From: Armatimonadota bacterium
GTDB taxonomy: Bacteria > Armatimonadota > Fervidibacteria > Fervidibacterales > Thermosaccharophagaceae
Direction of reading: 5' to 3'
DNA: 47,859 nt
Assembly: GCA_025062195.1 (NCBI GenBank)
Contig: JANXAS010000023.1
Location: forward strand, 1 to 47,859
Shown: positions 27,179 to 45,216 of the stretch, one piece after another
Numbering within the stretch: position 1 is the first letter of the stretch
Layout: every line of letters starts with the position of its first letter
Position numbers and translations under genes: made by a program
Notes under the pieces: model-generated
Databases searched by the model: none
Seen by the model: only the letters and a program-made list of their open reading frames with translations
What the model was told of the DNA's origin: nothing

Positions 27179-27181
27179 GTG

Positions 27182-27313: not shown

Positions 27314-27357
27314 ACAAGATAAACCGCAAAAGCGCCGTGTAGAGTGGTGATGCCAAG

Positions 27358-28125: not shown

Positions 28126-28135
28126 TGAGGTGCTA

Positions 28136-29026
28136 ATGATGAGCGAACATCACAACGCCGCATACGAGCCATTGCCACATTGGCTTAAAGCAAAGCTGCC
28201 AAAGAAGCCTTACACAGCCGACATGAAAGCTATGCTGCGCAGCTTCGGTTTGCACACAGTCTGCGAGTCCGCAAGATGCCCAAACATAGGCGAATGCTTT
28301 TCACGCCGCACAGCCACATTCATGATACTCGGCGATATCTGCACGCGCTCATGCAAGTTCTGCGCTGTCAAAAGTGGTGTCCCAACGCCAGTTGATGATG
28401 ATGAGCCGAGAAGAATTGCCCTCATGGTCAAGGCTTTAGGGATAAGGCACGCAGTCATAACATCGGTGACAAGGGATGACCTTGTAGATCAAGGCGCAAG
28501 ACATTTTGCGGCAACCGTCACGGCGATAAAACAGTTATGCGAAGGCGTTACGGTTGAGGTGTTAGTGCCGGACATGAGGGGCAGAAAGGAACTTGTGAAG
28601 ATAGTCGTTGAGAGCGGACCGGATGTTTTCAACCACAACATTGAAACCGTTAGACGACTGCAAAGGCTCATAAGACCACAGGCAGATTATCAGCGCTCGT
28701 TAAATGTGCTCAAGATGGCAAAGGAGTTGGATGACAGGATCATCACGAAGTCCGGCATAATGGTTGGGCTTGGTGAGAACGACGACGAAGTTATTGAGAC
28801 AATGAAAGACCTGCTTCTCTTCGGCTGTGATATAGTCACCATTGGGCAATACCTTCAACCGACAAGGCATCACTATCCAGTGATGAGGTATGTGCCCCCA
28901 GAAATATTTGAACGCTACAGCGAGATTGGAATGGCTATGGGCTTCAAGGCTGTCATCGCAGGACCGTTCGTTAGGAGTTCGTATATGGCAGAATTTGCTC
29001 TAAAGCTTGCAGCAACAAGCCGTTGA
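28136..29026 (+). CDS. lipA: Lipoyl synthase
   Basis: Radical SAM enzyme inserting two sulfurs into protein-bound octanoyl groups to make the lipoyl cofactor of 2-oxoacid dehydrogenases and the glycine cleavage system. Both clusters are seen: the auxiliary cluster Cys in CESARCPNIGEC and the SAM cluster CTRSCKFC. Other family segments are FMILGDICTRSCKFCAV, NHNIETVRRL, KSGIMVGLGE, IGQYLQPTRHH and the C-terminal RSSY (auxiliary-cluster Ser). About 296 aa. The ATG at 28136 or 28139 follows GAGG; the GTG at 28130 overlaps that site and is less likely. lipB is not nearby. tamB follows after 87 nt. Confidence 0.97.
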   Translation: MMSEHHNAAYEPLPHWLKAKLPKKPYTADMKAMLRSFGLHTVCESARCPNIGECFSRRTATFMILGDICTRSCKFCAVKSGVPTPVDDDEPRRIALMVKALGIRHAVITSVTRDDLVDQGARHFAATVTAIKQLCEGVTVEVLVPDMRGRKELVKIVVESGPDVFNHNIETVRRLQRLIRPQADYQRSLNVLKMAKELDDRIITKSGIMVGLGENDDEVIETMKDLLLFGCDIVTIGQYLQPTRHHYPVMRYVPPEIFERYSEIGMAMGFKAVIAGPFVRSSYMAEFALKLAATSR

Positions 29027-29113
29027 ACCAACATAGCATGGTGATTGAGCGCCAAACGATGCCTGCAAAATCGTCGGCAAGCACAGGCGCAAAATACGCT
29101 GCAGGTGAGAATC

Positions 29114-32100
29114 ATGAAGGAGTGGATGACATCACAGCGCGCACTCAGCGGAAGAATAGTGGCATTGGTGCTTATCATGCTCTATGTGCTGCTCATGCTA
29201 ATTGCAGCCATCTTTGCGATCCGCAAACTCATCCCCACGGACAAGGAAATCTTAGCGCTCATTAAATCGCAGCTTGAATTTAGCACGGGCACAAAGGTGC
29301 ACATTGGGAAGGTGAGCGGCAGTCCGTTCAAATCCGTCAGGCTGCACGATGTGCGCGTTGGTGAAGAAAAAATCTCGCCAACTGGCGCTATGCTCACTTG
29401 CGAGCGCATTGACATAAAACTCAACTTGCCGGCTCTCCTCAACGAACGCAGCATGCAGGATGAATTAATACGCCAAATTGAACTACACTCCCCTACACTG
29501 CACCTGCACAGGGATGCACAGGGCATTTGGAACTTCCAAAAAATCTTCAAGCCAAAGAAGCCAGCACGCCCGCCAGCATTCGCTATACGCCTAACTGCAA
29601 TTAACGGAAGCATTATTTACGAGGATGAGACTGTAAAGTTAGCCTCTGGGAGAGCAATGAAACTGGAGTTGCACAGGGTGCACGCAAAAGCTGTATTCCA
29701 CCCCAAGCCGACGACTGTGCGCCAACAGCCGATACTTGAATGGGAGCTAACTGGCGTCAGCGATAAATATGCTGTTCGCCGTATATCAGCGAACGGCGTT
29801 GTAGCTCAAGGCGGCATGATGCATGCACTGTTCAAAATCACAGCGCAAGATGTGACGCCTCAGGACTTGCCGATTAAGCTCACAGAGCTAATACGACGCC
29901 AAATTGAGTGGATGGGCGGGAAGGCATCCGTTAGTCTAATTGCCGACTTCAGTAAGGGCGGACGGGACGAAAAACTGAAAACATCGCTTAAATTGACATT
30001 CGTGGCGCACCAATCATCCATAAGGCTAAAGGGAGCGATGGCAGAACCATTCTCGGCAACAAGCATCAGCGGCAGCGCAAACATAGTGGCACATGGAGGG
30101 AAGCTAATCAAAGGCGGCATAATCGCGCATGCCGTAGATAGCGAAGGGAAATTTGGGAGTGCAAACATTGAGTTGGCTTACTCTTGGGCGCAGATTTACA
30201 GCCGCATAACTCTGCTCAATGCAAGCTTAAGGTGGCTCCAGGACGAGCTTGAGAAGTCGCTCAAGATGCCATATGGGCTGTGCATCCATTCCGGGCGGGC
30301 TGAGCAAATTGATGTGACACTGAAGCGCAGCCCGGGCAAGCCGATGAACATAGAAGCGCGCCTGAAAGCTTCAAACCTTCTCATCTCCACATCCCTTTTG
30401 AAATGCCCAACAAATGCTCTCAAGCTGGATTTGCAATGCTATCTCACAAATGCGCCGAAGCGTGCTCCGACTGGGAGAGCAATATTGAATGTGCTTCTTC
30501 CACCAATTGATGGTGCTCCTCCGGCAAGCATAAGCGCACGAATTAACGCTTGGGCAAACATCTTCAGCGGAAGAATTGCCATAGCTAACTTGAGCGCAAA
30601 GATGCTTAACATTTTGCGTGACGACCTTTTGCCCTTTACCGGAAAGCTCACCGATGGTCTGCTGAACATGTCCTTCTCGCTATATGCGCCAAAGGATGAG
30701 CGTAAAGGCTGGCTTGGCAGCCAGATTGAACTTTCGGATGTGTCTATAAGACAGCTAAGGGTCAAGGGGTTGCCACAATGGGATGAGCTGTTTCCTGACG
30801 GGGCAGATTTTCAACGCGTCCACGGCTCTGCAAGGTATAGCGATGGCATGTGGCAAATAATCGGCTTGGGTTTCTCGCACAGGGATTTTGATGCGGCACT
30901 TGAGGGTGCGATCTCGGAAAGACCGCTTGCATTCAGGTTGGCAGCGAAGTTGTTTGGGGTTAACCTAAGCTCGGCATGGAGGGCAATAAGGCAAATCCTT
31001 ACGAAAGGCAACCTATATCGGCAACTTGATTTGGATGCAGTGCCTAAGGGTCAAATCAATCTCCAGATGCTCGGCACAAGGAAGATGCTCATAGGTGGAA
31101 TTGAGATTGACGCGCCAAGCGTGCATCTTTCAGGGGAAGGAATTGGTAGCGCTTCCATCTCATCAGTTAGCCCGTCGGTCCAATTCGCATACATTCGTGA
31201 CAAACCGCCTCGCCTCACAGCGCACATTAGCTTTCAAGAGGCTTTTGTGAGAGATGCCCATTACGGAGCTGATAGGTGGGCTGACATTGAGAGGCTTGAT
31301 GCCTCAACACCGGTTGAGCTTCTTGGTATAGCCCGCCTGTCAAAGGTGACATTACAACTTGGTGATGAAATGCGTGCACGCTCAAGCGTGAATGTGAAAC
31401 AGATGCGCCTTGGGAAGTTGATTCTAAGCGATGTGCAATTTGAGATTGATGTATGCGGCAGGCGAATTGAGTTGAACAAGGTTAAGGGCAAGCTTGCCGG
31501 CGGCGCAGTTATCGGCGGAACCGCTGCAATTGAACATATTGGTGGCAAGGAGATTGAGAGGGCTGACTTCGCATGCACTGTTGAGCGCATAAGGCTTGCG
31601 CATGTTTTAAACCACTTGGATAACGGCATGCTGCCGCCATCCATATTCATTGATGGCGTTGCCTCTGGGAGGCTGTCAATCTCACTTGACGATGCGCAAT
31701 TGGGCATCGCCTATATCGGGGAAATTGAGTCGCCAACGCTTGCATATGAGGGTGCGAATGACGATGCCGCCAGCAGAGGCGCTTGCGCTATCGCCTCAGC
31801 CAACCTGAATGGCAATTCTGCACAGTTGCAGATGCAGCTTGAACTTGCGCGTTTGAAGAAATCATACAGGTTAAGCGGTGGAACACTTGTGGCATCTCTT
31901 GACAGGGGGCGCGGGCGCATAATGGCAGGCGATGGCAAACTCGTTGATTTACCTTTGGCAAGTGCCTTTGCGAGGGCTAAGTTTGACAGGGCTGTTGCCG
32001 ATGTCACGGAAGCACAGTGCATCGCATGGGACGCAAAATTGAGGGGGCGGGCGAAATGGGATTCAGCCAATGACGAACTTCAGGCGCAAGTTTTATTCAG

Positions 32101-35100
32101 CGAACTCAACCTCAGTGAACTCAATGACCTGCTTGGCGAACGCATTTCCGGTCGCTGCGACGGTCTTGTCACATTCACTAAAGCCCGCTCAGAGCAACAG
32201 CTGGAGGCACAACTGAATGCGTGCAATTTGCGCCTGCCAATTAAAGTGAGCACCGATGGTGGGTCAAAGCGGAAAGAAAACGAAAAGACTAAATTCATCA
32301 GGTTGCCATACATGAGCGCCAACATGAGGTGGGATGGGGAAAAGCTTGAAGTCAAATCTGCCAAAGTTCATTATGCCGATTCAGAGTTTGAAGTCTACGG
32401 CTCGGTTGAAGGATTTAGCGATGGTCTGAAGAAAGCCAGAGCCAACTTGAGGGCGTATGCAAGAGCTGTTGATATTGGGAGGGCGCTTTCGGAGTTTGGT
32501 GTGGATGCTGATTTTGAAGGGGTCGGAAATGTTGAAGCGCAAATTGCAGGTATACTTGCATCGCCGACGGTGAAGGCGTCAATCAATGTGCCACTGCCGC
32601 TGGTGGCGGGAATGGCATTTGAATGGATGGATGGCCATGTGTTTTATGATGCGTCGCTAAAAAGCGCCATTGCATCACCGCTGCGTCTTCGTGTAGCTGA
32701 TAGCGAAGCCATAATATCGGCGAAGGTGAGCGACATCTTCAACTCCAACAAGCTTGATGGCGAAGTGAGCGCAGAAAAACTTCGCCTTGCCTGGTTGCTG
32801 AGGCAGGTTGCCCCAAAGGTGAGCATTGAAGGGTTTGTAAAATCAATCGCTGGCTCAATTTCTGGGACATTGACCAACCCATCACTGAATGCGCGGCTAT
32901 CAATTGAGGATGCAAAGTTTCATGGCACGGTGATCGGCGATGGTGATGGGCGTATAATACTTAAGCGCCTCGGGAAGGATGAATACTCTGTCAATGCGCT
33001 ATTTGAAATGAAGCCGCGGCACGGCAACGCCACCTTAAACTTATCGCTCACGAAGCTAAACGAAAAGCTGAGTTTGAGCGCGAGCTGTGACGGCGATGGA
33101 CTGCAATTAGCATGGGTTGAAGGGTTACTGAACTCGCTCAGCGCTTCGCTCAGGGCTCAGGGTAAGAAAGTGCCAACAGTTGATGAGGCAATCAAAACAG
33201 TTTCAAAGCTCCCCCATCCGTTGAGTGGTGCGCTGAAACTTGCGGCAGCTTACTTGAGAGATGGAGATGAGCAGCGTTGGCGAATTGAGTGCGCCATACC
33301 GAAATTGCACATGGGACGAAGCGGACCATATGGGTTATGGGCGAAATTGCACGGCGATGCTTCGCAAAGGCATATTGAGGAACTGCGCATAGCTCATGCC
33401 GATGCTGCTGCAACATGTTCTGGTGTTGTGGACAAGGATGGGAGCATGAATCTGAAGGCGAGCCTAAACAAGCTGCGCCTCTCATCGCTCTCTCACTTCC
33501 CAAAGCTTCGCCTTCCCATAGATGCAACAGTCACTGCAAGCGCTCTCATTTTTGGCTCGCTGGATGAGCCCAAATTGGATATCACTGGCGAGGCAGTTGA
33601 TATGCGTTACAAGGATTTGCGCATTGAGCGCATGAAGTTCAAGTCGGTGAGATACCAAGATGATAAGCTCCTTGCTGAGCGCGGCGATTTGGTCATACAG
33701 CAGTCTGGGCACTCAATTTTGCTTTGGGGTAAGTTGCCACTTAAGCTGCGGGCAAAAGCACCAAAGGAAGCACTTGATGTTCATATGCAGCTCATTGGGG
33801 CACCGATAACATTATGGCAATCGTTTCTAATTCCAGTGGATGAGGCAAGCATTGGGCATTTCAACATTGACATGCATCTTGGCGGTGTATGGGAGCTGCC
33901 GATGCTCTATGGAAAGCTCACCGTGAGCGCACCCAAACTTTGCCTGATGAACGGCAGGGCAACGCTCAGCGACCTCAATGTGGACATTGTTGCTGATGGC
34001 AGGAGGGCAAAGATTGAACAGTGCAGCATGAACTGGAACGGCGGGAAGATAACAGTGGATGGCTACATTGAACTTGGGAAAGAGGCACTCGCATCGCCGA
34101 TGGCTAACAAAGCCGATTTGAACATAAGTGTGAGCGATGTGCCATTGGCTTTCGGGGGACTAATTTCGTTAGGGAGGCTGAGCGCATCGTGGAGATTGCA
34201 AAGCTTAGCCGATAGCAATGGACTTGCTTTGCAGCTTCTGAGCGCTTCGTTATCGGATCAACCACAAGCTATAAGGGCAGATGGATTTGCGCAATGGCAT
34301 TCTGCTCTATTAGCTTCTTGGGAAGCGCTTAAGCCATCTCAACTGATGCGCAGATTGATGCTTGCAAATTGCAACTTCAATGTGTATCTGAACAAGCTTC
34401 GCCTTCGCCTGCGTGACGCATTTGACGGCTATGTGAGCGGCAGGCTGCGCTTGATGAACCGAGAACCGTTGCCCGAAGGATTCAAGCTGAGTGAAATTGC
34501 TGCGGTTGAGGATTTGAAACATTACATTCCCGAGGGTATGCCGACGCTCACCGGATTTTTGACAGTGCACGATGGCATGATGCGCGGAGTCCCGAGAGTT
34601 GAAACTGGGGCTCGCATTAAGCCGATCGGGCTGGCAATGCCCGCGATTGATGTCACGCTCAACCTTGGTAACGGTGTTGAATTGCGAAATGTGCAAATCA
34701 GCGCCCCACTGCGCGGTCAAGTGAGCATCAAGGGTTATCCAAACTCACCCAACATCACCGGAAGATTGTATGCCAATAGGGGTGTGCTTCGTCTGCCGGG
34801 TGGCGTCCTGAGATTGACGATTGCTGATATACAAATCAGCGCCTTACCGGATAGCGAAGCCATGACGATGCGAAGTTTCATAAACCTGAATGTTGAAGCG
34901 AGGGGGAGAATGGGCAGCTATGAAGTGACAATGCGCGCCTCAGGTCCGTTAGGTGGTGCTGGTGAAACAAGGTGGGCAATGGTCAAATTTGCTTCAACAC
35001 CACCATTGGCTGAGGAAGAGATTGCAAGGCGCCTATTGGGGATAAACCTGCCGAAGGAATTGGGCGAAGATGCATATAAGTCACTCGTTGAGACGATAAC

Positions 35101-35383
35101 GCCGACACTGCAGAGAGCGTTTGCATCAACAGTTGGCGGTGGATTGGCACAGGCACTCGGTCTGGAGCAAATAACAGTTGAGCAAGAGGAAGGTGGCAGG
35201 CAGCGCTTGGGCATTGGCGCAAGAATTTCCCCGAGCCTTTACATACGCTGGTATCAGGGGTTGGCTGGACAAGGAAGCGCAATTGAAGTTGAGCAATGGC
35301 TGAACAGATGGGTCTCATTTGTTTGGCGGCAAGATGAGAGGCAAAGGAACGAGTTCAGAGTGCAAGTGCACTTCCAGTTTTAA
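29114..35383 (+). CDS. tamB: TamB/DUF490-type giant envelope protein (intermembrane bridge)
   Basis: 2089 aa, larger than E. coli TamB (1259 aa). One N-terminal membrane anchor (LSGRIVALVLIMLYVLLMLI region, about residues 12-38) is followed by an AsmA-like start (IKSQLEFSTGTKVHIGKVSG, LHDVRVGEEKI). Then comes an enormous run of alternating beta segments with many GxxxxP and AxGxV turns, as in the TamB/VPS13-like lipid-transfer groove. The conserved C-terminal TamB domain includes PNITGRLYANRGVLRLPGGV, STPPLAEEEIARRLLG, LAQALGLEQITVEQ and the final aromatic VQVHFQF. TamB works with Omp85 proteins and transports phospholipids to the outer membrane. The ATG at 29114 follows CAGGTGAG; the frame is open to 29045. 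An Omp85 gene (bamA) lies 0.8 kb downstream. Confidence 0.92.
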   Translation: MKEWMTSQRALSGRIVALVLIMLYVLLMLIAAIFAIRKLIPTDKEILALIKSQLEFSTGTKVHIGKVSGSPFKSVRLHDVRVGEEKISPTGAMLTCERIDIKLNLPALLNERSMQDELIRQIELHSPTLHLHRDAQGIWNFQKIFKPKKPARPPAFAIRLTAINGSIIYEDETVKLASGRAMKLELHRVHAKAVFHPKPTTVRQQPILEWELTGVSDKYAVRRISANGVVAQGGMMHALFKITAQDVTPQDLPIKLTELIRRQIEWMGGKASVSLIADFSKGGRDEKLKTSLKLTFVAHQSSIRLKGAMAEPFSATSISGSANIVAHGGKLIKGGIIAHAVDSEGKFGSANIELAYSWAQIYSRITLLNASLRWLQDELEKSLKMPYGLCIHSGRAEQIDVTLKRSPGKPMNIEARLKASNLLISTSLLKCPTNALKLDLQCYLTNAPKRAPTGRAILNVLLPPIDGAPPASISARINAWANIFSGRIAIANLSAKMLNILRDDLLPFTGKLTDGLLNMSFSLYAPKDERKGWLGSQIELSDVSIRQLRVKGLPQWDELFPDGADFQRVHGSARYSDGMWQIIGLGFSHRDFDAALEGAISERPLAFRLAAKLFGVNLSSAWRAIRQILTKGNLYRQLDLDAVPKGQINLQMLGTRKMLIGGIEIDAPSVHLSGEGIGSASISSVSPSVQFAYIRDKPPRLTAHISFQEAFVRDAHYGADRWADIERLDASTPVELLGIARLSKVTLQLGDEMRARSSVNVKQMRLGKLILSDVQFEIDVCGRRIELNKVKGKLAGGAVIGGTAAIEHIGGKEIERADFACTVERIRLAHVLNHLDNGMLPPSIFIDGVASGRLSISLDDAQLGIAYIGEIESPTLAYEGANDDAASRGACAIASANLNGNSAQLQMQLELARLKKSYRLSGGTLVASLDRGRGRIMAGDGKLVDLPLASAFARAKFDRAVADVTEAQCIAWDAKLRGRAKWDSANDELQAQVLFSELNLSELNDLLGERISGRCDGLVTFTKARSEQQLEAQLNACNLRLPIKVSTDGGSKRKENEKTKFIRLPYMSANMRWDGEKLEVKSAKVHYADSEFEVYGSVEGFSDGLKKARANLRAYARAVDIGRALSEFGVDADFEGVGNVEAQIAGILASPTVKASINVPLPLVAGMAFEWMDGHVFYDASLKSAIASPLRLRVADSEAIISAKVSDIFNSNKLDGEVSAEKLRLAWLLRQVAPKVSIEGFVKSIAGSISGTLTNPSLNARLSIEDAKFHGTVIGDGDGRIILKRLGKDEYSVNALFEMKPRHGNATLNLSLTKLNEKLSLSASCDGDGLQLAWVEGLLNSLSASLRAQGKKVPTVDEAIKTVSKLPHPLSGALKLAAAYLRDGDEQRWRIECAIPKLHMGRSGPYGLWAKLHGDASQRHIEELRIAHADAAATCSGVVDKDGSMNLKASLNKLRLSSLSHFPKLRLPIDATVTASALIFGSLDEPKLDITGEAVDMRYKDLRIERMKFKSVRYQDDKLLAERGDLVIQQSGHSILLWGKLPLKLRAKAPKEALDVHMQLIGAPITLWQSFLIPVDEASIGHFNIDMHLGGVWELPMLYGKLTVSAPKLCLMNGRATLSDLNVDIVADGRRAKIEQCSMNWNGGKITVDGYIELGKEALASPMANKADLNISVSDVPLAFGGLISLGRLSASWRLQSLADSNGLALQLLSASLSDQPQAIRADGFAQWHSALLASWEALKPSQLMRRLMLANCNFNVYLNKLRLRLRDAFDGYVSGRLRLMNREPLPEGFKLSEIAAVEDLKHYIPEGMPTLTGFLTVHDGMMRGVPRVETGARIKPIGLAMPAIDVTLNLGNGVELRNVQISAPLRGQVSIKGYPNSPNITGRLYANRGVLRLPGGVLRLTIADIQISALPDSEAMTMRSFINLNVEARGRMGSYEVTMRASGPLGGAGETRWAMVKFASTPPLAEEEIARRLLGINLPKELGEDAYKSLVETITPTLQRAFASTVGGGLAQALGLEQITVEQEEGGRQRLGIGARISPSLYIRWYQGLAGQGSAIEVEQWLNRWVSFVWRQDERQRNEFRVQVHFQF

Positions 35384-35390
35384 TTCTGCT

Positions 35391-35561
35391 CGCTCTTTAA
35401 CAAAAACTCTGTTGATTAGGTTTGTAGTTAGCCACGAAGCGAATGCGGGGCGCATAAAATCAGTGTGAGGTGCAGTATTGCTGTCTTACTTTGCACTCAT
35501 TACGGCACTCCGCTTCGCTCGGTGCCTTACTATGAACCGACGAAATTCTGAGCAAAGAGCG
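35391..35561. repeat. MITE-like element with different interior, upstream of the sigma gene
   Basis: 171 bp bounded by CGCTCTTTAACAAAAACT at the left and, reverse complemented, CGCTCTTTGCTCAGAATTTC at the right. Inverted similarity extends about 50 bp (TTGATTAGGTTTGTAGTTAG against GTCGGTTCATAGTAAGGCAC). The X and Y hairpins are absent, yet the termini match those of 1750-1960. A clean target duplication was not found. It fills almost the whole tamB-sigma gap. Confidence 0.65.
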
Positions 35562-35628
35562 GTGTGGTTTTAGTTGTGTGGAGAATGACTTGCAGCTCGC
35601 TTTGTGCCCATATGGTGGTGCGAAGCAA

Positions 35629-36204
35629 ATGCGAGGTTGGTTTAGGCGCGGGAGCGCCGAAAACTTTGAATCCATCGTTGAGCAATATTATGAGAAGGTG
35701 TTCAGGTTGGCATATCGCATGCTGCAAAGCTATGAGGAAGCTGCAGACGTAACGCAGGATGTCTTTCTGCATGCTTATCGTGGCTGGAGTGGCTTTCGCG
35801 GTGAGAGCCAAGTTTACACATGGCTTTATCGCATCACCATCAACATGTGTAAGAACAGATTGAAACAGCTGCAGCGCATCAGAAGGCACGAGACACAAAT
35901 TATTTTGACGGGTGAGCAAAGCGAGGGCGATGAGGGCGAGGAAACACACTTGGTTGAGCCCGAGGATTTTTCCAACTCGCCCGAAACCGCTGTAGGAAGA
36001 AAGGAGCTTCGCGAAGCTATAGAAAGGGCACTAAATGAACTCCCACTTGACTACAGGATGCTCATAACACTGCGGGATATTGAGGGGCTGTCATACGAAG
36101 ACATTGCAAAGATACTCGGATGCACAATTGCTGCCGTTAAGGCAAAGCTCTTTAGGGCAAGAACACACCTAAGGGAAAAGCTGCGCCCATACCTTGAGGA
36201 ATAA
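35629..36204 (+). CDS. ECF-type RNA polymerase sigma factor (RpoE-like)
   Basis: A two-domain group 4 sigma factor of 191 aa from the ATG at 35629 (GGTGGTG 8 nt upstream). A GTG at 35578 would give 208 aa. Region 2: FESIVEQYYEKVFRLAYRML, DVTQDVFLHAYRGW, TWLYRITINMCKNRL. A Glu-rich linker follows (GEQSEGDEGEETHLVEPE). Region 4: ALNELPLDYRMLITLRDIEG, LSYEDIAKILGCTIAAVKAK with its helix-turn-helix, LFRARTHLREKL. It sits 9 nt before bamA in one operon, which suggests control of envelope assembly. No anti-sigma factor is recognisable in the window, and there is no membrane segment here. Confidence 0.93.
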   Translation: MRGWFRRGSAENFESIVEQYYEKVFRLAYRMLQSYEEAADVTQDVFLHAYRGWSGFRGESQVYTWLYRITINMCKNRLKQLQRIRRHETQIILTGEQSEGDEGEETHLVEPEDFSNSPETAVGRKELREAIERALNELPLDYRMLITLRDIEGLSYEDIAKILGCTIAAVKAKLFRARTHLREKLRPYLEE

Positions 36205-36213
36205 GGAGGGAGA

Positions 36214-38097
36214 GTGGAAATGGCTCATACCATCAAGCTGAACAGGTGGCGATGTGAGGAGCGAATTAAAACGAGCGGCTTTTCAAAGTGTTTGCTCATA
36301 CAACTTTGCTCCCTAATTCTTTGTCTTTCAGCCTGTGATATTGCGCTATCGCAGGCAAGGGAGGTCGCCGAGATACGCGTTGTAGGGCTGAAGCAAATCC
36401 CGTCCGAGAATGTTCTACTGACGATGTCGGTAAAGGTCGGCGATATCTTGACTGAAGAGGATTTGCGAGCTCGCCTCGCAAAAGATATGGACAGGATTTG
36501 GCAGCTCGGTTTTTTTGCCCGCCGTCCGGATTACGATTTTGAACTTGACGAGCGTGGTCGTTGGATTATCACCGTAAGGCTTGTTGAACATGCGGTTGTT
36601 AGGGAGATCGTGATTGAGGGCAACACCGCTATATCAACCGAAGAGCTAACATCAACCATCTCAACCAAGGTTGGGCAAATACTGAATGAGGCTGTGTTGG
36701 CGAGGGACATTGACCGAATAAGGGAGCTTTACAGGGGCAAGGGTTTCCTTGCTGAAGTTGAGGCAGTTGACTTTGATGACGCAACTGGAAGGCTAACACT
36801 TAAGATAGCCGAGGCGTTCGTGACCGGTATAAAGTTTGAGGGTTTGAAGAAAACGAAGGAGAAAATTCTTCGCATGGCAATTCTCACCAAAGTTGGAGAC
36901 CTGTTTAACCGTGAACGCCTCTCGGAAGATTGGAGGCGGTTGAATGATCTTGGGCTTTTCAAAAGCGTTGATATTGAGCCAAGGCCTGACGAACAAGGCA
37001 GTGGCATCGTTGTCACTTACAAGCTTGAGGAGCAGCGCACTGGCATGGCGAGTGCTGGAATCGGAGCGAGCTCCCGAGGTGAATTTGTTGGATATGTGAT
37101 GCTACAAGAAAACAATCTTGCCGGATTGGCACAGCGCCTCAGGCTGGAAGCCGAGTTCTTTGAGCGCAGGACTTGGGGCATCTACTACGAACGCCCATAC
37201 ATGAATAACCGAGGATTAATGATGTCAGCACACATCTACGACACTCGCTTTTACAGGGAGCCAAGGGCAGCATGGTTGATCGTCCCGCAGCAATGGACAC
37301 TACAAGATGTTCTCTTCACCGAGGAGAGGCGCGGCATAAGGGTGACGCTTAGGCAACCGAGAAGCCGTGAGGATGACAGAACTTGGTATACCTTGGGCTT
37401 GCGGAACGAGGATGTATCATTTACGCAAAGGGGTTATGTTGGAGGCATCCTTCAGGAGATAGGACCGACGCGCTCTCAAGGAAGAATAATGGCATTGCAG
37501 TTTGGCTATGAGAGGGATACAAGGGATATAAGATTTGATCCGTCAAAGGGGCAGCATGCCATCTTAAGCGTTGATCTTGCCACAAAGGTGCTCGGCGGAG
37601 AACACAGCTTTGCAAGGGCCGGTTTTGAGTGGCGCTTCTACAGAGCTGTTGGGAGGGGCATTTTGCCAATTACAAAGGAGCAGCGCGTCCCTAAAAATGT
37701 TTTTGCCGCAAGATTTATGTTGGGCACATCACTCGGTAGCCCGCCAGTATTTGAAAACTACTTCGTAGGTGGCTCGGAGAACTTGCGTGGTTATAGCATT
37801 GATAGGTTCGTTGGGAAGCACCAAGCTGTGCTCAACATGGAGTTGCGCCATAGGCTCAATCGCAATGTGCAAATTGTTCTTTTTGCTGATGCCGGAGATG
37901 CATGGGGTGGGCAGCACTCAATTGATTTTGAAGCCGCTGCTGCTGGCAGAAGGAAAATACGGGAGTCAATAGACCTCAAGTATGGCTACGGAGTTGGCGT
38001 GAGGTTCATTACACCACTCGGATTGCTCAGGTTTGATTATGCAATTAATGACGAGGGGAAAAGCAAGTTCCATGTGAGCGTTGGACAACTCTTCTAA
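36214..38097 (+). CDS. bamA: Outer membrane protein assembly factor BamA (short, three POTRA domains)
   Basis: Omp85-family insertase folding beta-barrels into the outer membrane. 627 aa (E. coli 810). A signal peptide (LLIQLCSLILCLSACDIALS, cut near residue 47) is followed by three POTRA domains: about 50-118 (VAEIRVVGLKQIPSENVLL), 120-195 (VREIVIEGNTAISTEELTS) and 196-275 (VTGIKFEGLKKTKEKILRM). The barrel spans about 280-627. It has the Omp85 signature ENLRGYSIDRF (the V/L-R-G-F/Y loop motif), FADAGDAWGG and a C-terminal aromatic, VGQLF. GTG 36214 (GGAGG at 4 nt) or ATG 36220 may start it. E. coli BamA has five POTRAs, so the complex here is simpler. No BamB-E genes are seen. Confidence 0.93.
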   Translation: MEMAHTIKLNRWRCEERIKTSGFSKCLLIQLCSLILCLSACDIALSQAREVAEIRVVGLKQIPSENVLLTMSVKVGDILTEEDLRARLAKDMDRIWQLGFFARRPDYDFELDERGRWIITVRLVEHAVVREIVIEGNTAISTEELTSTISTKVGQILNEAVLARDIDRIRELYRGKGFLAEVEAVDFDDATGRLTLKIAEAFVTGIKFEGLKKTKEKILRMAILTKVGDLFNRERLSEDWRRLNDLGLFKSVDIEPRPDEQGSGIVVTYKLEEQRTGMASAGIGASSRGEFVGYVMLQENNLAGLAQRLRLEAEFFERRTWGIYYERPYMNNRGLMMSAHIYDTRFYREPRAAWLIVPQQWTLQDVLFTEERRGIRVTLRQPRSREDDRTWYTLGLRNEDVSFTQRGYVGGILQEIGPTRSQGRIMALQFGYERDTRDIRFDPSKGQHAILSVDLATKVLGGEHSFARAGFEWRFYRAVGRGILPITKEQRVPKNVFAARFMLGTSLGSPPVFENYFVGGSENLRGYSIDRFVGKHQAVLNMELRHRLNRNVQIVLFADAGDAWGGQHSIDFEAAAAGRRKIRESIDLKYGYGVGVRFITPLGLLRFDYAINDEGKSKFHVSVGQLF

Positions 38098-38182
38098 CTG
38101 ACTTTAACGAAAGACACATAGATTGGTTTTTTCCACGGGGTGGATTTGTGGGATAACACAGCCAACCGATGCGAGCATTTTA

Positions 38183-38251
38183 CCTCAGCAAATGAGCAGC
38201 AGCTGTTGATGCTGAGGGCAAGATGAATTGCCGCGCAGCCAAAGCATCAAC
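38183..38251 (+). promoter_or_regulatory. Leader with two mutually exclusive stems before the first OmpH gene
   Basis: CCTCAGCA (38183-38190) pairs perfectly with TGCTGAGG (38210-38217). Alternatively GTTGATGCT (38205-38213) pairs perfectly with AGCATCAAC (38243-38251), enclosing a GGCAA/TTGCC inner hairpin. The two stems share bases 38210-38213, so only one can form. It lies in the 228-nt bamA-ompH gap. This is a switch-like geometry; function is inferred. Confidence 0.45.
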
Positions 38252-38325
38252 GCTATAGAGGGCGATTGAGCCATTAAGTTTGATTCCTTTTACAAGACAC
38301 ACCTCCAAAGCAGGGGGGAGAGACA

Positions 38326-39114
38326 ATGAGAAACCATAGCACAGGTAGAGGGGTTTATTTGGTGAGACAATGTCCGCCGAAAGATGCTGTGCGCAGCAGA
38401 GGCTTTGGTATGTCAGCTGCGATTTTCTCGGCAGCTGCTTTGTGCCTCTTTGCGAGCCTATCGCTATCGGGTGAAGCTGGGCAGCAAACCAAACTTGTGA
38501 TTGCCGTCGTAAACATGGATAAGCTGCTGAGCGATTATGTCGCCTACCAAGAGGCAAACAAGAAATTTGAGGCTGAAGTTGCATGGCGGCAGGAAATGCT
38601 CGTAATTAGGGAGATGCTCAAGCACGATGAATGGCGCGAGCTTGATAACCTTGAAGCGCTCGCGAGGGAAGGAAAGTTAACGGAGAAGGGCGAGAAGAGG
38701 TTGGAGGAACTGAAGCGTGTTTCTAATGAGAGGCGAGACATGCTGAAACTGCTGATGGCAAAGAAGCTAACCGAGGAGGAAAGGAAACTGCTTGAGGAAC
38801 TTCAGGGGATAATGCGTTCAAACGAGGGCGAGTTGCAAAAGTTGCGCGATAAGTATGAGGCAGACCTCGACAGGATTCAAAGGTTTTACCTTGAGCGTTT
38901 TGGGAAGGAGATAGCTGAGGCTATTAAGACGGTGGCACAACGCTACGGTATAAAGCTCGTCATAGCCAAAAGAAGCAACGGCGGTGGGCAAATACTGTTT
39001 GATGAACTTGTCCTATACGCTGACCCGACGCTTGAAATAACTCAACAGGTGCTGAATATACTTAACGCTAAAGAAACGCGCCCACCTGAGACCAAAGAGC
39101 AACCAAAGAAGTGA
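38326..39114 (+). CDS. OmpH/Skp-like periplasmic chaperone, first paralogue
   Basis: 262 aa. A signal peptide with an unusually long N-region (about 28 residues) precedes MSAAIFSAAALCLFASLSLS. The mature part starts with the OmpH hallmark LVIAVVNMDKLLSDYVAYQE, then a long coiled coil (about 85-190, with LTEKGEKRLEELKRVSNERR and LTEEERKLLEELQGIMRSNE), and returns to the beta body with AEAIKTVAQRYGIKLVIAK, LFDELVLYADPTLEITQQVL, matching the Skp layout of tentacle helices on a trimeric beta body. Skp holds unfolded outer-membrane proteins for BamA. ATG at 38326 follows GGGGGGAG. The C-terminus is a Lys/Pro/Glu tail. Confidence 0.82.
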   Translation: MRNHSTGRGVYLVRQCPPKDAVRSRGFGMSAAIFSAAALCLFASLSLSGEAGQQTKLVIAVVNMDKLLSDYVAYQEANKKFEAEVAWRQEMLVIREMLKHDEWRELDNLEALAREGKLTEKGEKRLEELKRVSNERRDMLKLLMAKKLTEEERKLLEELQGIMRSNEGELQKLRDKYEADLDRIQRFYLERFGKEIAEAIKTVAQRYGIKLVIAKRSNGGGQILFDELVLYADPTLEITQQVLNILNAKETRPPETKEQPKK

Positions 39115-39149
39115 GCTTACAATCTCGGGTATAAATCGGGGGGAGTAAA

Positions 39150-39866
39150 ATGAGAGTGAGCAGCACAAGCGAGCATAAGCTAAAAAAGCACGGCGAAAAG
39201 TTGTTGACGCTTATTTGTGCGCTTTGGAAGCCATTAGCTATAGGCTTCGTCATTGCCGGCATAGCTTGCGCTTTTGGTTCGTTTGTTTCAGCGCAGGGCG
39301 AGTTTAAGGTAGGCGTGATCAAGATGCAGGCGCTTCAAAGGGACTTCGGTGAATACCGAGAAGCAATGGAGCGCCTTGAGGAGGAGAGGCGTTCATACGA
39401 GCGCCAACTGGCTCAGCTTCGTTCCTACCCGCTGCTCACCGCAACGGAAATTGAGGAACTTTTAAAGCTGAGTTTGAAGGAACGACCGAGCGAATCCGAG
39501 CAGCGCAGGCTGCTTGAATTGCGAGGGTTGCACGCGCAACGCACCGATGAGTTTCAGCGTCTAAGCGCAGCACCGTTTGAGAACTTGACGCCAGCGCAGC
39601 AACAACGCTTGAAGGAATTGCGAACCATAGCGCAAGAGAATGCCAGCAGACACAGCAAGCTCGCTGAGGAGCTCCAAAGGAAGCTCAACAGCCTGAGTGA
39701 ACAAATGCGCAACCACATTGACAGACGCATACGGGAGACGGTCGCACAGGTTGCACACGAAGAGGGCTTTGATATGGTGTTTGACCGTGAGGCAGTTTTA
39801 TTCGTGCGCGGAAAAGTGGTTGACATCACTGCACAGGTTTTGAAGCGTTTGAATGAGGGCAAGTGA
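39150..39866 (+). CDS. OmpH/Skp-like periplasmic chaperone, second paralogue
   Basis: 238 aa. A signal or anchor segment (LAIGFVIAGIACAFGSFVSA) ends in a likely cleavage site, followed by EFKVGVIKMQALQRDFGEYR, the OmpH start. The coiled-coil arms span about 70-190: EAMERLEEERRSYERQLAQL, LTPAQQQRLKELRTIAQENA, ELQRKLNSLSEQMRNHIDRR. The return strand is VAQVAHEEGFDMVFDREAVL, ending VVDITAQVLKRLNEGK. It lies 35 nt after the first paralogue and 11 nt before the third. The arms are Glu/Arg/Gln rich. Duplication of skp next to bamA is known in several diderm phyla; three in a row is more unusual. Confidence 0.82.
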   Translation: MRVSSTSEHKLKKHGEKLLTLICALWKPLAIGFVIAGIACAFGSFVSAQGEFKVGVIKMQALQRDFGEYREAMERLEEERRSYERQLAQLRSYPLLTATEIEELLKLSLKERPSESEQRRLLELRGLHAQRTDEFQRLSAAPFENLTPAQQQRLKELRTIAQENASRHSKLAEELQRKLNSLSEQMRNHIDRRIRETVAQVAHEEGFDMVFDREAVLFVRGKVVDITAQVLKRLNEGK

Positions 39867-39877
39867 GGTGCAAATTG

Positions 39878-40972
39878 ATGCGTGCGCTTGTTTCATGCAG
39901 GCTCAGTCTAATCGTGCTCATTTGTGGGGCGTGTTGGGTGGGGTGCAGCGTTAGCATGTGCGAGACAGGTAGCTCAAAAATTGCCTATGTTGATGTGGAG
40001 CGCTTGATGCTCTCACACCCTATGAGTGGCGAACTTATACGATTAATGAGCGTGCCTAAGTGGCTCGTAATGGACATGAGGGCTACTTCAGAGCAACTGC
40101 CGCGGGATGAAACTCATGAGCGGATAGGTGAGGATGTAACTCGTGAGTTTAAGATACCCCTGGGGAAGATACCTGAGCCAAATGAGCCAACAATTCAAAC
40201 TGCACGGGCTGATTTAAGCCTGCTCAAGCGCTCAGCGGAGTTACTTGCAAAAGTTGTTGAACAAATGCAAGGCGAAACAAGAGAGCAAATAGAGTTGCTG
40301 ACGGGCATCAAGAGGGCAGAGCTGAGGGAAGAATACATCATGCGCACACAACTCCTTCTTGAGCGGCAATCTCCGAAGCGGACAAGAATAAGGGTGCGCC
40401 TGCTCAACCCCTCGTTAAGTGAGAAAGAACGCTCAGCACTCATTGCTGAGGAAGAAAGGCTTAACGCCGAACTTGAGCAGCAGCTCATTAAACTCAGGCA
40501 GCAACTTGACGAACAGCTGCGTAGTTGGAGGTTGAGCTTGGAGCGTGAGGCGGACGAGCAGCTCTGCCGCCTGAAGGGAAACATTAACGAGATGTTGAAT
40601 GAATCAATTCGTGTGCTTCAGCACGAGCCCGAAAAACCGCGATGGCTCAACCTTCGCGAACTATGGGATGCTTTCTCCCCAAGAGACATAGAGCCTATAG
40701 CGATGGTCATGCCGCAAAAGAGACTTGCTAACAACGAGCTTGAAATGCAAGCGCAGCGGAATCGCCTTTTAGAGAATGCCACCGGATTAACAAGACATGA
40801 GTGGATGAACAATTGGCAGACTGCCTTGAGAAGGTGTGTCATTGAATTTGCGCGCATGTATGCGCTGCAGCATGGCTTTAAGATGCTCGTCACAGAGAGG
40901 AGGAAAGACGCAACGGACATAACGGACCAAGTTATTGCATCGCTTCAACAAGCCATAACACAAAGGCGATGA
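39878..40972 (+). CDS. OmpH/Skp-like protein, third and largest paralogue
   Basis: 364 aa. The N-terminal hydrophobic segment LSLIVLICGACWVGCSVSMC ends with several cysteines, one of which could be a lipobox cysteine, though the consensus is poor. The mature part begins KIAYVDVERLMLSHPMSGEL (OmpH-like beta strand) and ends FARMYALQHGFKMLVTERRK, then DATDITDQVIASLQQAI, which fits the Skp return strand. Between them lies a much longer insert than in the other two, with a coiled coil (about 185-270: ALIAEEERLNAELEQQLIKL, RQQLDEQLRSWRLSLEREAD). ATG at 39878 (GAGGTG 8 nt upstream) is preferred over the GTG at 39863 that overlaps the previous stop. lpxD follows after 19 nt. Confidence 0.7.
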   Translation: MRALVSCRLSLIVLICGACWVGCSVSMCETGSSKIAYVDVERLMLSHPMSGELIRLMSVPKWLVMDMRATSEQLPRDETHERIGEDVTREFKIPLGKIPEPNEPTIQTARADLSLLKRSAELLAKVVEQMQGETREQIELLTGIKRAELREEYIMRTQLLLERQSPKRTRIRVRLLNPSLSEKERSALIAEEERLNAELEQQLIKLRQQLDEQLRSWRLSLEREADEQLCRLKGNINEMLNESIRVLQHEPEKPRWLNLRELWDAFSPRDIEPIAMVMPQKRLANNELEMQAQRNRLLENATGLTRHEWMNNWQTALRRCVIEFARMYALQHGFKMLVTERRKDATDITDQVIASLQQAITQRR

Positions 40973-40991
40973 ACTTCCACGGTGAGGTATC

Positions 40992-42047
40992 ATGCAGCGT
41001 CGCAATGTTGGGGTGACACTTGGCGAACTCGCAAAGCTTGTGAATGGCACTGTGGTGGGTGATGAAGGTGTCGTAATTTGCGGTTTGAGCGAAATTGAAT
41101 CGGCAACGCAAAATGACCTTGTCGTAGCTATGGATAGGCGCTGTGCGGATGCCGCTTTTAAAAGCAACGCTGCAGCTGTGCTTGTTCCGCGCGGGTTGGA
41201 AAGCGAGGAAAAGCCATGCATTGTCTGCGAGCATCCAAAATTGGCTCTCGCCGCAATTGCCGAATTGTTCTCTGCAAAGCGCTTTTACTCACCCGGTGTG
41301 AGCAGGCTCGCTATCATTGACGAAACAGCGAAGATAGCCAAAGGCGTTTCCATTGCCCCATTTTGCTTCATCGGACCAATGAGCCGAGTGGGCGAAGGGA
41401 CGATAATTTACCCATTCGTGTATATTGGTGCAGATGTAAGCATAGGCTGCAACTGCCTCATATACCCCGGAGCAGTTATTTATGACGGTGTGCACATTGG
41501 TGACAGGGTAATAATACACGCTAATGCCGTTCTGGGGAAAGACGGCTTTGGATTTGTCTGGGACGGAATGGCACACAGGCGCATACCGCAAATTGGCGGA
41601 GTAATAATTGAGGACGATGTTGAGATAGGAGCTAATTCTTGTGTTGACAGAGCAACGCTCGGTGTGACGAGGGTGAGGAAAGGGACAAAGATAGACAACC
41701 TTGTGCAAGTGGCGCATAACTGTGATGTTGGAGAGCACTGCATACTTTGCGGGATGTCTGGCTTGGCTGGCAGCGTGAAAGTCGGTAAGGGTGTAATAAT
41801 TGGGGCGCAAGCCGGAATAAAAGATCATGTTAGCGTTGGGGATGGCGCGATAATAGCTGGCAGAGCTGCAGTGGCGAAAGATGTAGCTTCAGGTGAGACG
41901 GTTTCAGGCTACCCAGCAAGACCACACAGAGAGGCGTTGGTTGTGGAGGCACTTACGCATCAGCTGCCGAAGTTCCGCGAGGCATTGAAGAAACTTGAGA
42001 GTGAGGTTACAGAAATTAAGGCTCTACTGCTCCAGCTGAAGATGTAG
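40992..42047 (+). CDS. lpxD: UDP-3-O-acylglucosamine N-acyltransferase
   Basis: Adds the second acyl chain to UDP-3-O-acyl-glucosamine in lipid A synthesis, at the cytoplasmic face. 351 aa: the N-terminal uridine-binding domain ([38 protein letters not shown]) is followed by a left-handed beta-helix of hexapeptide repeats (about 110-315, such as [20 protein letters not shown]). The catalytic His is in [13 protein letters not shown], with [11 protein letters not shown] before it. The C-terminal helix [20 protein letters not shown] forms the trimer cap. ATG with GGTGAGG at 5 nt. The bamA-skp-lpxD order is the classical one of Proteobacteria and shows the cell makes lipid A. Confidence 0.95.
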
Positions 42048-42063
42048 GAAGCGAGGTGGCACA

Positions 42064-43884
42064 ATGACAGCAAAGCGGTGCGCCGCATGCGTGCTTCTAT
42101 CACTTATCACAACAAAATTGCTGCTACAAGAGATAGCCGTTACGCAGTGTGTAACGACATCGCTCAATTTGCGTTTGCGCCAAATGCCCATTGACGGATT
42201 GAGCTGCGTTGAGTTGCTCTCGGGCGAAAATGTCGTCCTCCGTATAAGGCATAAAAGCGCACTTGAGTGCAATGCCATCGCAAGGAAACTCCTTGACACA
42301 CTTCACTCAGCTGTGCTGTCTTTGGCAACGGAAAAGGATGTTAGTGTGCAAAGGGTCAAAGGCGGATACAAGGTATTAATCGGTGATGCGGAGGCAATCT
42401 TAATTGACCATGTTATTGCTCGCAACTCGCGCAGTCTTGTGGATAAGCTCGCCAATATAGTCGCTGAGCGTTTGAAAGATTTGCTCAGACGCCCATACTT
42501 AGCGGTCCCAATTGATGAAGTGACGATCGGCGTCGGTGAGACAAAGATAATCGCCATCCTTGGAACGGCTGATGGGCAGTGGAGAGTGAGCGTCGCCCCT
42601 CACGATGTTGCGTCGGTATCTTTTGATGCCACTACCAAGATGCTGCGTCTGAGCGCTTTCAAAGCCGCTGATGGGAACGCCATTGTGAGCTGCGGCAATG
42701 CAAAGCTTACACTGCCAATTCGCATTAGAGCGCGTGCTGCAAGGCTACTTCGTTCACCCATTGCAATAGCCACCGATACAGCACCAGTTGAGTTTACCAG
42801 AGAGGCAGCTATTAATGCCATCTTGAACTCGGTTGAACGGATGCCTGGGGCGCAACTTCGCTTTGAGCTGTTGGGCAAGCCCTCAAATGATTTTCCGGAT
42901 GAGGTGCTGATAGCCCGGCTAAAAGCATATGGAGCGGAATACCTGCCGTTGGATGCTAATGCTGCGATTCGCATCCTGCGCATACCACCGATGAGGGAGA
43001 GTGCTGCAGCGCTATTAGTCAGCAACGAACCGGAACGCATCCACACCGAACAGGTTCTTAGTGCGGGCATGCTGCCAAATACGGGAAAGCCAATTCGCTT
43101 GCTCTATCATCATGTGAATGCCAGTGGCGAAACTCTTTGGCTTCGCCTTGAGCTGTTCAACACATCCGAGAACGAAGCGCAAATAATGGCGCAGTTTGCG
43201 CATGCCGGCCCGATAACGGACGAAATACATTCTGGATACACGGCTGTCAGCATGTTCCTAAGGAGATGGTTTGATGGTGCTGCGTTCGTTCTTGAGCTGC
43301 CACCACGCTCCATTTATGTGCTCTCAGAGTCTGCAATGCCAGCTGGCACTACAATAACAGGTCTGTGGGAAATCACGCCGGTTGTGGGGGGTAGCCTCGG
43401 ATACCAAATCAGAGCTACAAGGGAACGATCGCAGTGGAGAATCATACCGCTGACAGCCCCCATAGCCAGAGACATACCAATTAAGGCAAGACAATTTGCT
43501 GAGCCAATGAAACTTATAACTGCAAGACACACTGTCGGTAGCGACTGGGCTTTTATACACATCGGGCGTGAACCAATTCGTGGCTTGGATAAGGAACACC
43601 TTCATGGTAACTATGGCGTCATTTACCGAATCACCGTTGAAGTGGAAAACAACAAAGATACAATCTCCACATACGAGCTTGCGTTCATGCCAAACGCTGG
43701 CATTGCAAGGTGCGCCGCAATTGTTGACGGCGAGTTTGTGAGTGCGCCTTTAATTCGTCCATCCATGGAGTTCGTCCTTAAGAGGTGGCAGATACCGCCG
43801 ATGAGAACCAATCGCCACGAAATTTATATAATGCCATTGCCAGCTTCATACTATCCCGTTAGCCTCATCCTGCGTTCCCCGTGA
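42064..43884 (+). CDS. Exported protein of unknown function at the end of the envelope operon
   Basis: I do not recognise this 606-aa protein. It has a possible signal peptide (CVLLSLITTKLLLQEIAVTQ). An N-terminal region (about 35-150) has two alternating hydrophobic/charged halves (GENVVLRIRHKSALECNAIA, RSLVDKLANIVAERLKDLLR). An Ig-like stretch (about 155-235: IDEVTIGVGETKIIAILGTA, VASVSFDATTKMLRLSAFKA) could be a Big2 or pilus-N-domain type fold, recalled only from pattern. A C-terminal beta-rich half (340-600) reads like a carbohydrate-binding or jelly-roll fold (IRLLYHHVNASGETLWLRLE, EIYIMPLPASYYPVSLILRS). ATG with GAGGTGGC, 16 nt after lpxD, so it is co-expressed with outer-membrane biogenesis genes. 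Confidence 0.6.
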   Translation: MTAKRCAACVLLSLITTKLLLQEIAVTQCVTTSLNLRLRQMPIDGLSCVELLSGENVVLRIRHKSALECNAIARKLLDTLHSAVLSLATEKDVSVQRVKGGYKVLIGDAEAILIDHVIARNSRSLVDKLANIVAERLKDLLRRPYLAVPIDEVTIGVGETKIIAILGTADGQWRVSVAPHDVASVSFDATTKMLRLSAFKAADGNAIVSCGNAKLTLPIRIRARAARLLRSPIAIATDTAPVEFTREAAINAILNSVERMPGAQLRFELLGKPSNDFPDEVLIARLKAYGAEYLPLDANAAIRILRIPPMRESAAALLVSNEPERIHTEQVLSAGMLPNTGKPIRLLYHHVNASGETLWLRLELFNTSENEAQIMAQFAHAGPITDEIHSGYTAVSMFLRRWFDGAAFVLELPPRSIYVLSESAMPAGTTITGLWEITPVVGGSLGYQIRATRERSQWRIIPLTAPIARDIPIKARQFAEPMKLITARHTVGSDWAFIHIGREPIRGLDKEHLHGNYGVIYRITVEVENNKDTISTYELAFMPNAGIARCAAIVDGEFVSAPLIRPSMEFVLKRWQIPPMRTNRHEIYIMPLPASYYPVSLILRSP

Positions 43885-44057
43885 TGGTATACGAGGGCGC
43901 AAATTTCGGGTCGGTAATGAGCGAGTGGTGGCGCACAAGGTGCATCCGCAAAATGGGCGGGCTTAATCCAACAAAATTTTTATAACCTCGCGCCAAACAC
44001 TGCTTCATCACATCAAATTGGAGCGCTGTGAAACGCATATTTGACCTTAGGCAAAGC

Positions 44058-45125
44058 TCACTTTCCCACAGCTGTGCCCCATAGAACCTGCATTGAGCCA
44101 GCAATTTTAACTTCAACAGACATAGTGACATTCTCGCCCTTCTCACCCTTTTGCTCCTTCTCAATTAAGCCCTCTTCCTGCAGCAACTCCTTTGGCACAT
44201 CTGCGCTCTGCTTGAAATTGGCATCAAATTTGAGCTCAACTTGAATTATCGTTCCATCGGTGATGTCAAACTGCCCCTCTCCCTCAATTGTGAACATACC
44301 GCTATCAATTCTTGCCTTCACGGGTTTCCTAACCTGAGGGAGCTGTGTGAGCGTCTCAACATCCTGCACTTCCGCTTTTGAACTTACGCTTATGTTTGCT
44401 ATCTGGTGGTTGGTGGCTTCGTCAGCATGCGTGGATTCAAGTTTGAACACAAAGTTGACAGGCAACAGGCGTTCAATTATGACAATCGGCATATCCACAC
44501 GGCGCTCCCAAGTCTCACCAACTGCAACTGGCTCATCCGGAAGCAGCGGCGGCATGTTTGCGAAAAACTGCTGCGGGTCAAAATTCGGTATGATGAATTG
44601 AAGCCTCTCAAATCCAACTGAGGATGTAACTTTTCCATTGGGCTGCATCGTAAACATAAGCGGTCCAAAAAGCAACCTGTGAATGCGCTTTCGCTGCTCC
44701 TCTGGCAGGGCATTGGTGTCAACCTTGAAGTCACCTATGCCAAAAACTATTCTCCCTTCGTCAACCATCATCGTGGCTTTCTGCCCAAACATTATCCCGT
44801 CAAGCTTAATCTCCCTAACTTTAAGCTCAATCAATCCCTCACCATCTGCGCCCACTAACTTAACTGTTTCGGTGAACCTACTGTCTCCATTCACTACGAT
44901 GTCGCTCTCAATCGTTCTTCTTCCGGCGCCATTCATCACGAGTTGCATCTGACCGACTATGCTGGTTTTCACATGAATGATTCGCTCCTTGCCCTGCTTG
45001 AAGTTAATGCGCAAGCTGACCTTCTGATTCGCCTCCCCAGCTAAGACGCACACCAACTGAAGTAGCGCCAAAATTGCGCCAGCCATCGTTGCAGTAAGCA
45101 GCCGATTATAGTTTGCATTTGGCAT
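44058..45125 (-). CDS. Exported protein of unknown function (355 aa)
   Basis: An N-terminal signal peptide (LLTATMAGAILALLQLVCVL, cleaved near AGE) is followed by an all-beta, charged protein without membrane segments: SLRINFKQGKERIIHVKTSI, MVDEGRIVFGIGDFKVDTNA, LLPDEPVAVGETWERRVDMP. The pattern (conserved GETWER, repeated beta strands, a final mixed region VTMSVEVKIAG) resembles secreted DUF6263-like proteins, but I hold this only as a weak recollection. The start is taken as ATG 45125 with GGGGGTG at 9 nt; a GTG at 45137 lies inside that ribosome site. It is convergent with the envelope operon (173 nt gap without a clear terminator) and follows the GHMP kinase gene after 91 nt. Confidence 0.65.
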   Translation of the reverse strand: MPNANYNRLLTATMAGAILALLQLVCVLAGEANQKVSLRINFKQGKERIIHVKTSIVGQMQLVMNGAGRRTIESDIVVNGDSRFTETVKLVGADGEGLIELKVREIKLDGIMFGQKATMMVDEGRIVFGIGDFKVDTNALPEEQRKRIHRLLFGPLMFTMQPNGKVTSSVGFERLQFIIPNFDPQQFFANMPPLLPDEPVAVGETWERRVDMPIVIIERLLPVNFVFKLESTHADEATNHQIANISVSSKAEVQDVETLTQLPQVRKPVKARIDSGMFTIEGEGQFDITDGTIIQVELKFDANFKQSADVPKELLQEEGLIEKEQKGEKGENVTMSVEVKIAGSMQVLWGTAVGK

Positions 45126-45216
45126 CTGCAAATCCACCCCCGTTGAAATCTGTGTTTGCTTTAATGACCAAAATTATATTGCCTCATTTTGAGAGCTGCG
45201 GCAGTCTTTGAGAGCC

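Follow-up and report, generated by a model that had tools for sequence, protein, structure and literature searches.

The window, the 47,859-nt stretch of Armatimonadota DNA analysed here, carries on its forward strand a run of genes for outer-membrane assembly with an ECF sigma gene in its midst:

28130..29026, + strand, lipA-like radical SAM gene (Pfam Radical_SAM 89 bits, LIAS_N 33 bits)
29045..35383, + strand, tamB, 2112 aa (C-terminal Pfam TamB match of 62.8 bits; N-terminal AsmA and DUF748)
35384..35577, + strand, gap between tamB and the sigma gene, the position of an autoregulatory promoter in 12 other families
35578..36204, + strand, ECF sigma gene (Pfam Sigma70_r2 62.5 bits, Sigma70_r4_2 69.5 bits)
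36214..38097, + strand, bamA (Pfam Omp85 122 bits and three POTRA domains; TIGR03303 221 bits)
38326..39114, + strand, first ompH, a Skp-like chaperone (Pfam OmpH 57.7 bits)
39150..39866, + strand, second ompH, a Skp-like chaperone (Pfam OmpH 61.6 bits)
39863..40972, + strand, exported helical ompH-like gene, so named by position
40992..42047, + strand, lpxD (TIGR01853 334 bits)
42064..43884, + strand, exported protein with no family assigned, at the end of the run, with counterparts in this position in five other families

With tamB, bamA and ompH adjacent, the run belongs to the outer-membrane cluster type. The lipA-like gene, 18 nt ahead of tamB, is probably the upstream part of the tamB transcript. 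The original prediction had the sigma gene leading the operon, a view refuted by tamB, which precedes it on the same strand at a distance of 194 nt. From the sigma gene to the final exported gene, the intergenic gaps measure 9, 228, 35, -4, 19 and 16 nt. The 9-nt spacing before bamA was thus seen as described, with a GGAGG for bamA (36205-36209) immediately 3' of the sigma stop codon. The start of bamA may be the GTG at 36214 or the ATG at 36220, and that of the sigma gene is ambiguous, lying anywhere from 35578 to 35629. The predicted gene list (ECF sigma, bamA, three ompH copies, lpxD and an exported protein) holds for all but the third ompH, since the Pfam search with the 39863-40972 product gave no match; in many relatives, unassigned ORFs of ~290-500 aa occupy the counterpart position between ompH and lpxD. 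The 600-aa product of the last gene was modelled by AlphaFold2 as beta-rich domains (mean pLDDT 86), and a PDB fold search with this model returned no convincing match.

An Rfam search of positions 27000-45000 returned zero families, and a sigma-70 promoter scan stayed at chance level. The gap between tamB and the sigma gene contains a 23-nt GC-rich palindrome-like stretch, GGCACTCCGCTTCGCTCGGTGCC (35504-35526), which is not a standard terminator since no T-run follows on its 3' side; no second copy was found in the window or in the other loci scanned. On the opposite strand, an exported protein at 44058-45137 has a sub-threshold match to DUF6263.

The sigma factor has the two domains of an ECF protein, Sigma70_r2 at residues 33-100 and Sigma70_r4_2 at 145-198. 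Its best NCBIfam model is RpoE (TIGR02939), at 156.4 bits against a cut-off of 236.15, which places it outside the E. coli-type equivalog. The linker between the domains is short and ordinary, with SLD and D130 conserved, and the suggestion that an unusual linker acts as the regulator is not needed.

ECF sigma factors are usually, although not universally, co-encoded with their own anti-sigma. The genome holds 11 sigma-70-type genes, and its ECF sigmas on contigs C91, C94, C99 and C104 each have a zf-HC2 gene directly behind them. For the bamA-linked sigma, no anti-sigma family was found in the gene run or in the genes just upstream. An anti-sigma of the RseA type was considered and rejected, as the RseA_N profile found nothing above its cut-off in the whole genome.

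To assess the conservation of this arrangement, 60 relatives from 28 other families were searched with the sigma and BamA proteins and the neighbourhoods were inspected; a few genomes could not be judged for adjacency because of contig ends. The sigma gene adjoins tamB and/or bamA on the same strand in 48 loci, the window included, from 26 families, usually with tamB on one side and bamA on the other, so that the adjacency expected by the original prediction is conserved. Recurrence in 26 families means that the gene order is not chance. None of the 48 loci has an adjacent anti-sigma, in line with the earlier remark that no such gene was visible. In families f15 and f18 the sigma core starts 13-47 nt past the tamB stop, a distance implying that the genes are co-transcribed or that the promoter lies inside tamB; in f16 one extra gene separates tamB from the sigma gene. 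The sigma gene is missing from this place in two families, f13 and f4 (7 genomes), where tamB and bamA, or in one case just bamA, are present. Downstream, the run continues as lpxD-lpxC-fabZ-lpxA-lpxB in many relatives.

The bamA-linked sigmas form one clan. In a quick tree that set them against further ECFs from inside and outside the phylum, a single branch (SH-aLRT 98) splits the 48 from the rest, two very long Lachnospiraceae rows being the exception to a clean split. A narrow search of the loci of related sigmas in other phyla revealed no sigma-bamA adjacency. As a separate observation, family f5 (G045 L141:6415-9537; also G007, G021, G034 and G054) has a second, shorter Omp85 gene behind an S26 signal peptidase gene, in a locus divergent from another ECF sigma gene with a zf-HC2 match near it.

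Dyad counting upstream of the sigma genes yielded no pattern above shuffles and was abandoned; a signal emerged once AAC and TGTC, 16 nt apart, were treated as a single motif. In the 350 nt preceding the sigma core, AAC-N16-TGTC occurs in 14 loci from 11 families, compared with a mean of 0.64 loci (maximum 3) in 100 shuffles and 0 on the reverse strand. Most of these sites lie 15-53 nt past the tamB stop. The flanks, which were not part of the search, are conserved as well: a G at -2 of AAC in 10/14, and AA after TGTCY in 12/14 and 11/14. The full motif, (G)AAAC-N16-TGTC(T/C)AA, matches the known ECF promoter type with AAC at -35 and a GT-containing -10 (PMC8103513).

We then scored sites by a weight matrix with spacers of 15-18, trained on the sigma-upstream sites only. 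Twelve families (f3, f6, f10-f12, f14, f20-f22, f26, f28 and f29) reach 15-22 bits in the tamB-sigma gap, where shuffles average ~5, and autoregulation of the sigma is implied there. Sites of at least 14 bits precede 16 of 48 bamA-linked sigmas versus 1 of 30 other ECF sigmas (p 0.0016, a value which, like our other motif p-values, overstates independence because the rows are related by descent). The single other ECF sigma, in G042, has a good site of 17.3 bits, and promoter specificity may therefore be shared; the other ECF sigmas of the window's own genome reach only 11.7 bits at best.

The window itself departs from this picture. Its tamB-sigma gap holds no motif (best score 2.5 bits), and the best score in the cluster, 13.1 bits inside the tamB coding sequence, is near background. 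The motif is likewise absent at the sigma gene of f2, f5, f7-f9, f15, f16, f18, f19, f23-f25 and f27. The autoregulated circuit proposed for this locus was thus borne out in part: an ECF-type promoter stands in the gap of 12 relative families, but the gene in the window lacks one. Nor was the shared ECF motif found at either place proposed for it, upstream of 35578 or within 38098-38325.

Outside the cluster, the genome contains one substantial zf-HC2 gene without a sigma neighbour, at C106:24086-25570 (495 aa; L171:10087-11574). Its zinc-finger domain is of class I, scoring 48.8 bits for zf-HC2 against a cut-off of 22.2, and by hydropathy only it has a membrane segment (peak 2.64 at residue 173) and a periplasmic part, a 303-residue tail. 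A further zf-HC2 match, on C118, was discarded as an anti-sigma gene, being a 45-aa open frame. An alignment-based search found about 20 full-length relatives of the C106 protein in ~20 of the 60 genomes. Nineteen of these proteins are built alike, with a pair of CxxC modules spaced 75-82 residues from each other, then a membrane helix and a tail of 160-300 residues. The gene went unrecognised in the majority of genomes that have the sigma, and none was found in the seven sigma-lacking genomes, detection being patchy. In G024 (f19), one such gene, L204 on C32, lies beside a different ECF sigma gene, with which it perhaps forms another sigma/anti-sigma pair built along these lines.

These orphan zinc-finger genes carry the same promoter motif. 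A matrix scan of 1.24 Mb of loci gave 45 matches of at least 14 bits, which beyond the sigma genes mark the orphan zinc-finger genes of the own genome (19.0 bits), G001 (19.5), G004 (19.8), G005 (21.2), G019 (16.7) and G055 (18.6). Overall, a site of at least 14 bits lies 53-210 nt before the zinc-finger core in 12 of 20 genomes, with near misses in f11 and f20 and no site in f15. Among ~890 control genes from these loci, such a site precedes two (Fisher 2e-20, kinship ignored), and the matrix shuffle rate is 0.0013 per 250 nt. The strict form, GAAAC-N16-TGTCYAA, occurs once each in the own genome, G005 and G019, always before the tandem zinc-finger gene; in the own genome this site, GAAACCACTTCAAGGCTCAAATGTCCAAG, is 82 nt before the C106 gene.

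In seven families (f1, f2, f10, f15, f20, f23 and f28), the zinc-finger gene is followed by a gene for a product of 700-1230 aa with predicted long antiparallel strands, whose nearest folds in a low-confidence model are outer-membrane barrels. The top Foldseek matches are LptD and TonB receptors (model pLDDT 54, TM about 0.2); the LptD profile PF04453 has no match in the own genome, and the Pfam profiles of FecR, plug and TonB receptor domains match neither member of the zinc-finger/barrel pair. The C-terminus of the unlinked zinc-finger proteins ends in or next to an aromatic residue in 13 of 18 cases, versus 2 of 21 sigma-linked zinc-finger proteins (kinship ignored), with ends such as ..LGIQW, ..LGVSW and ..VVRVEF; those of f11, f20 and f26 do not fit. 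From its domains and its promoter, the unlinked zinc-finger protein is the probable anti-sigma of the bamA-linked sigma. The guess of the original prediction that the anti-sigma is distant thereby gains support.

Genome-wide, the motif is not enriched (11 sites, 22 for the reversed control), and the background is equal in the seven sigma-lacking genomes. The regulon must then be small, and single motif matches are weak. Several fall at suggestive places. The own genome, where lpxC-fabZ and lpxA-lpxB lie on a contig other than that of lpxD, has a 17.7-bit site between fabZ and lpxA (L218:1501-1526; G000 C22:53210-53235). In G008, a 19.2-bit site at 8428 precedes a degP/htrA-type protease gene (L256:6540-8243). 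Two ompH genes have sites, in G027 (19.0 bits) and G016 (14.7 bits), and G016 has another, of 21.2 bits, at a LolA-like gene with an outer-membrane gene. The lpxA-lpxB, degP/htrA, ompH and LolA-like sites fit sigma-E biology; as weak single sites, we do not claim them as a regulon.

The sequence itself establishes the order of the genes and how widely it is kept, the motif with the positions at which it stands, and the domain composition of the proteins. On this basis we consider it fairly probable that the locus encodes a sigma-E-like envelope-stress circuit in which the sigma gene lies within the BAM operon and that of its anti-sigma elsewhere. Mechanistically, the position of the sigma gene between tamB and bamA would lead to its production together with the outer-membrane assembly machine. 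The sigma would be bound and restrained by the unlinked anti-sigma, whose two cytoplasmic zinc-finger modules would be joined through a single membrane helix to a long, proline-rich periplasmic tail, and whose gene would usually be co-transcribed with that of a large outer-membrane barrel. Faltering outer-membrane assembly would be the stress, signalled by the tail or the barrel, and the freed sigma would read the motif, transcribing from (G)AAAC-N16-TGTC(T/C)AA promoters. In many families the genes transcribed would include that of the sigma, bamA and those following it, while transcription of the anti-sigma/barrel operon would provide negative feedback. In the own genome, the motif is visible at the anti-sigma locus and perhaps at lpxA-lpxB, and the sigma gene has no feedback site. 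A more specific version, in which the OMP-like C-terminus of the tail is read by BamA or a protease, such that the sigma of the bamA operon is released once barrels fail to assemble, is an unlikely extension.

The main alternative is that the sigma has no dedicated anti-sigma: transcription of its gene as part of the tamB-bamA operon would be its only control, it would amplify envelope genes in a house-keeping role, and the zinc-finger/barrel operon would be just another of its targets. The lack of an adjacent anti-sigma in 48 of 48 loci and the failure to recognise the tandem zinc-finger protein in most of the genomes with the sigma speak for it. We regard it as unlikely, though with some real chance of being right, because a sigma-less zf-HC2 membrane protein under a common motif is what a split pair is expected to look like, and other ECFs of the genome do use zf-HC2 anti-sigmas.

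Alternatively, the motif could be recognised by another ECF sigma, whose targets would then include both the zinc-finger gene and the gene of the bamA-linked sigma. ECF promoters of the AAC...GTC type do resemble one another, and one other ECF, that of G042, has a good site. The bias of upstream sites toward the bamA-linked sigmas (16/48 against 1/30) makes this improbable, as does the lack of a site at the own genome's other ECFs, whose anti-sigmas are linked. Ordinary synteny, that is, an ECF captured once in an old tamB-bamA cluster and kept with no special role in outer-membrane control, would draw on the antiquity and wide spread of the TamB/BamA/Skp cluster (PMC5007114) and on the richness of the phylum in ECFs (PMC4959169). 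We find it highly improbable: operon order is poorly kept in Chthonomonas (PMC4959169), yet tamB-sigma-bamA is kept in 26 families, the tamB-sigma gap has its own conserved promoter, and a locus for an anti-sigma-like protein and an outer-membrane barrel bears the same motif.

The proposed circuit, with the sigma in the BAM operon and the anti-sigma elsewhere, matters since the sensing of outer-membrane damage is hardly known outside Proteobacteria. Here the operon of the essential outer-membrane assembly machine keeps its own sigma across a phylum (26 families, with f13 and f4 lacking it), and the motif makes the regulon and the probable unlinked anti-sigma directly testable. Catalogues in which sigmas and anti-sigmas are paired by proximity in the genome, such as a distance of up to 10 genes (PMC7406223), would overlook such split pairs. 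Among open-licence papers, we found no description of a sigma inside the TamB/BamA/Skp cluster, nor of a sigma-E-like factor whose tandem zinc-finger anti-sigma is unlinked.

Compared with known systems, the run of tamB, bamA, ompH copies and lpxD resembles the TamB/BamA/Skp(OmpH)/Lpx cluster known from many phyla (Antunes et al. 2016, PMC5007114), whose main text does not mention a sigma; here one lies between tamB and bamA. Class I zf-HC2 anti-sigmas share with the C106 type an N-terminal HxxxCxxC-type module, one membrane helix and a periplasmic part. The present proteins differ in having two modules 75-82 residues apart, a tail of 160-300 residues, an often aromatic C-terminal residue and, with one exception, no adjacent sigma gene. 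FecI/FecR/FecA signalling also employs an inner-membrane anti-sigma with a long periplasmic part, encoded beside an outer-membrane barrel, but here the sigma is elsewhere, and with no FecR, plug or TonB-receptor match the system falls outside that class. Outside Proteobacteria, the sigma-E of Fusobacterium nucleatum has a regulon that includes skp and bamA and a motif shared with its own gene, whereas the passages of that account considered here describe neither a sigma in the bam operon nor an unlinked tandem zinc-finger anti-sigma (PMC11005410). With E. coli RpoE/RseA (ECF02), the circuit shares an RpoE-like sigma, the promoter type (AAC in the -35, GTC and an A-rich -10), implied autoregulation in many families, and bamA, skp and lpxD nearby as in the sigma-E regulon. 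However, the sigma here sits inside the tamB-bamA operon with no rseA adjacent and no RseA_N above cut-off, and the probable anti-sigma is unlinked, has two zinc-finger modules and is paired with a barrel gene, which suggests that the outer-membrane stress circuit of these bacteria is wired differently from that of E. coli.
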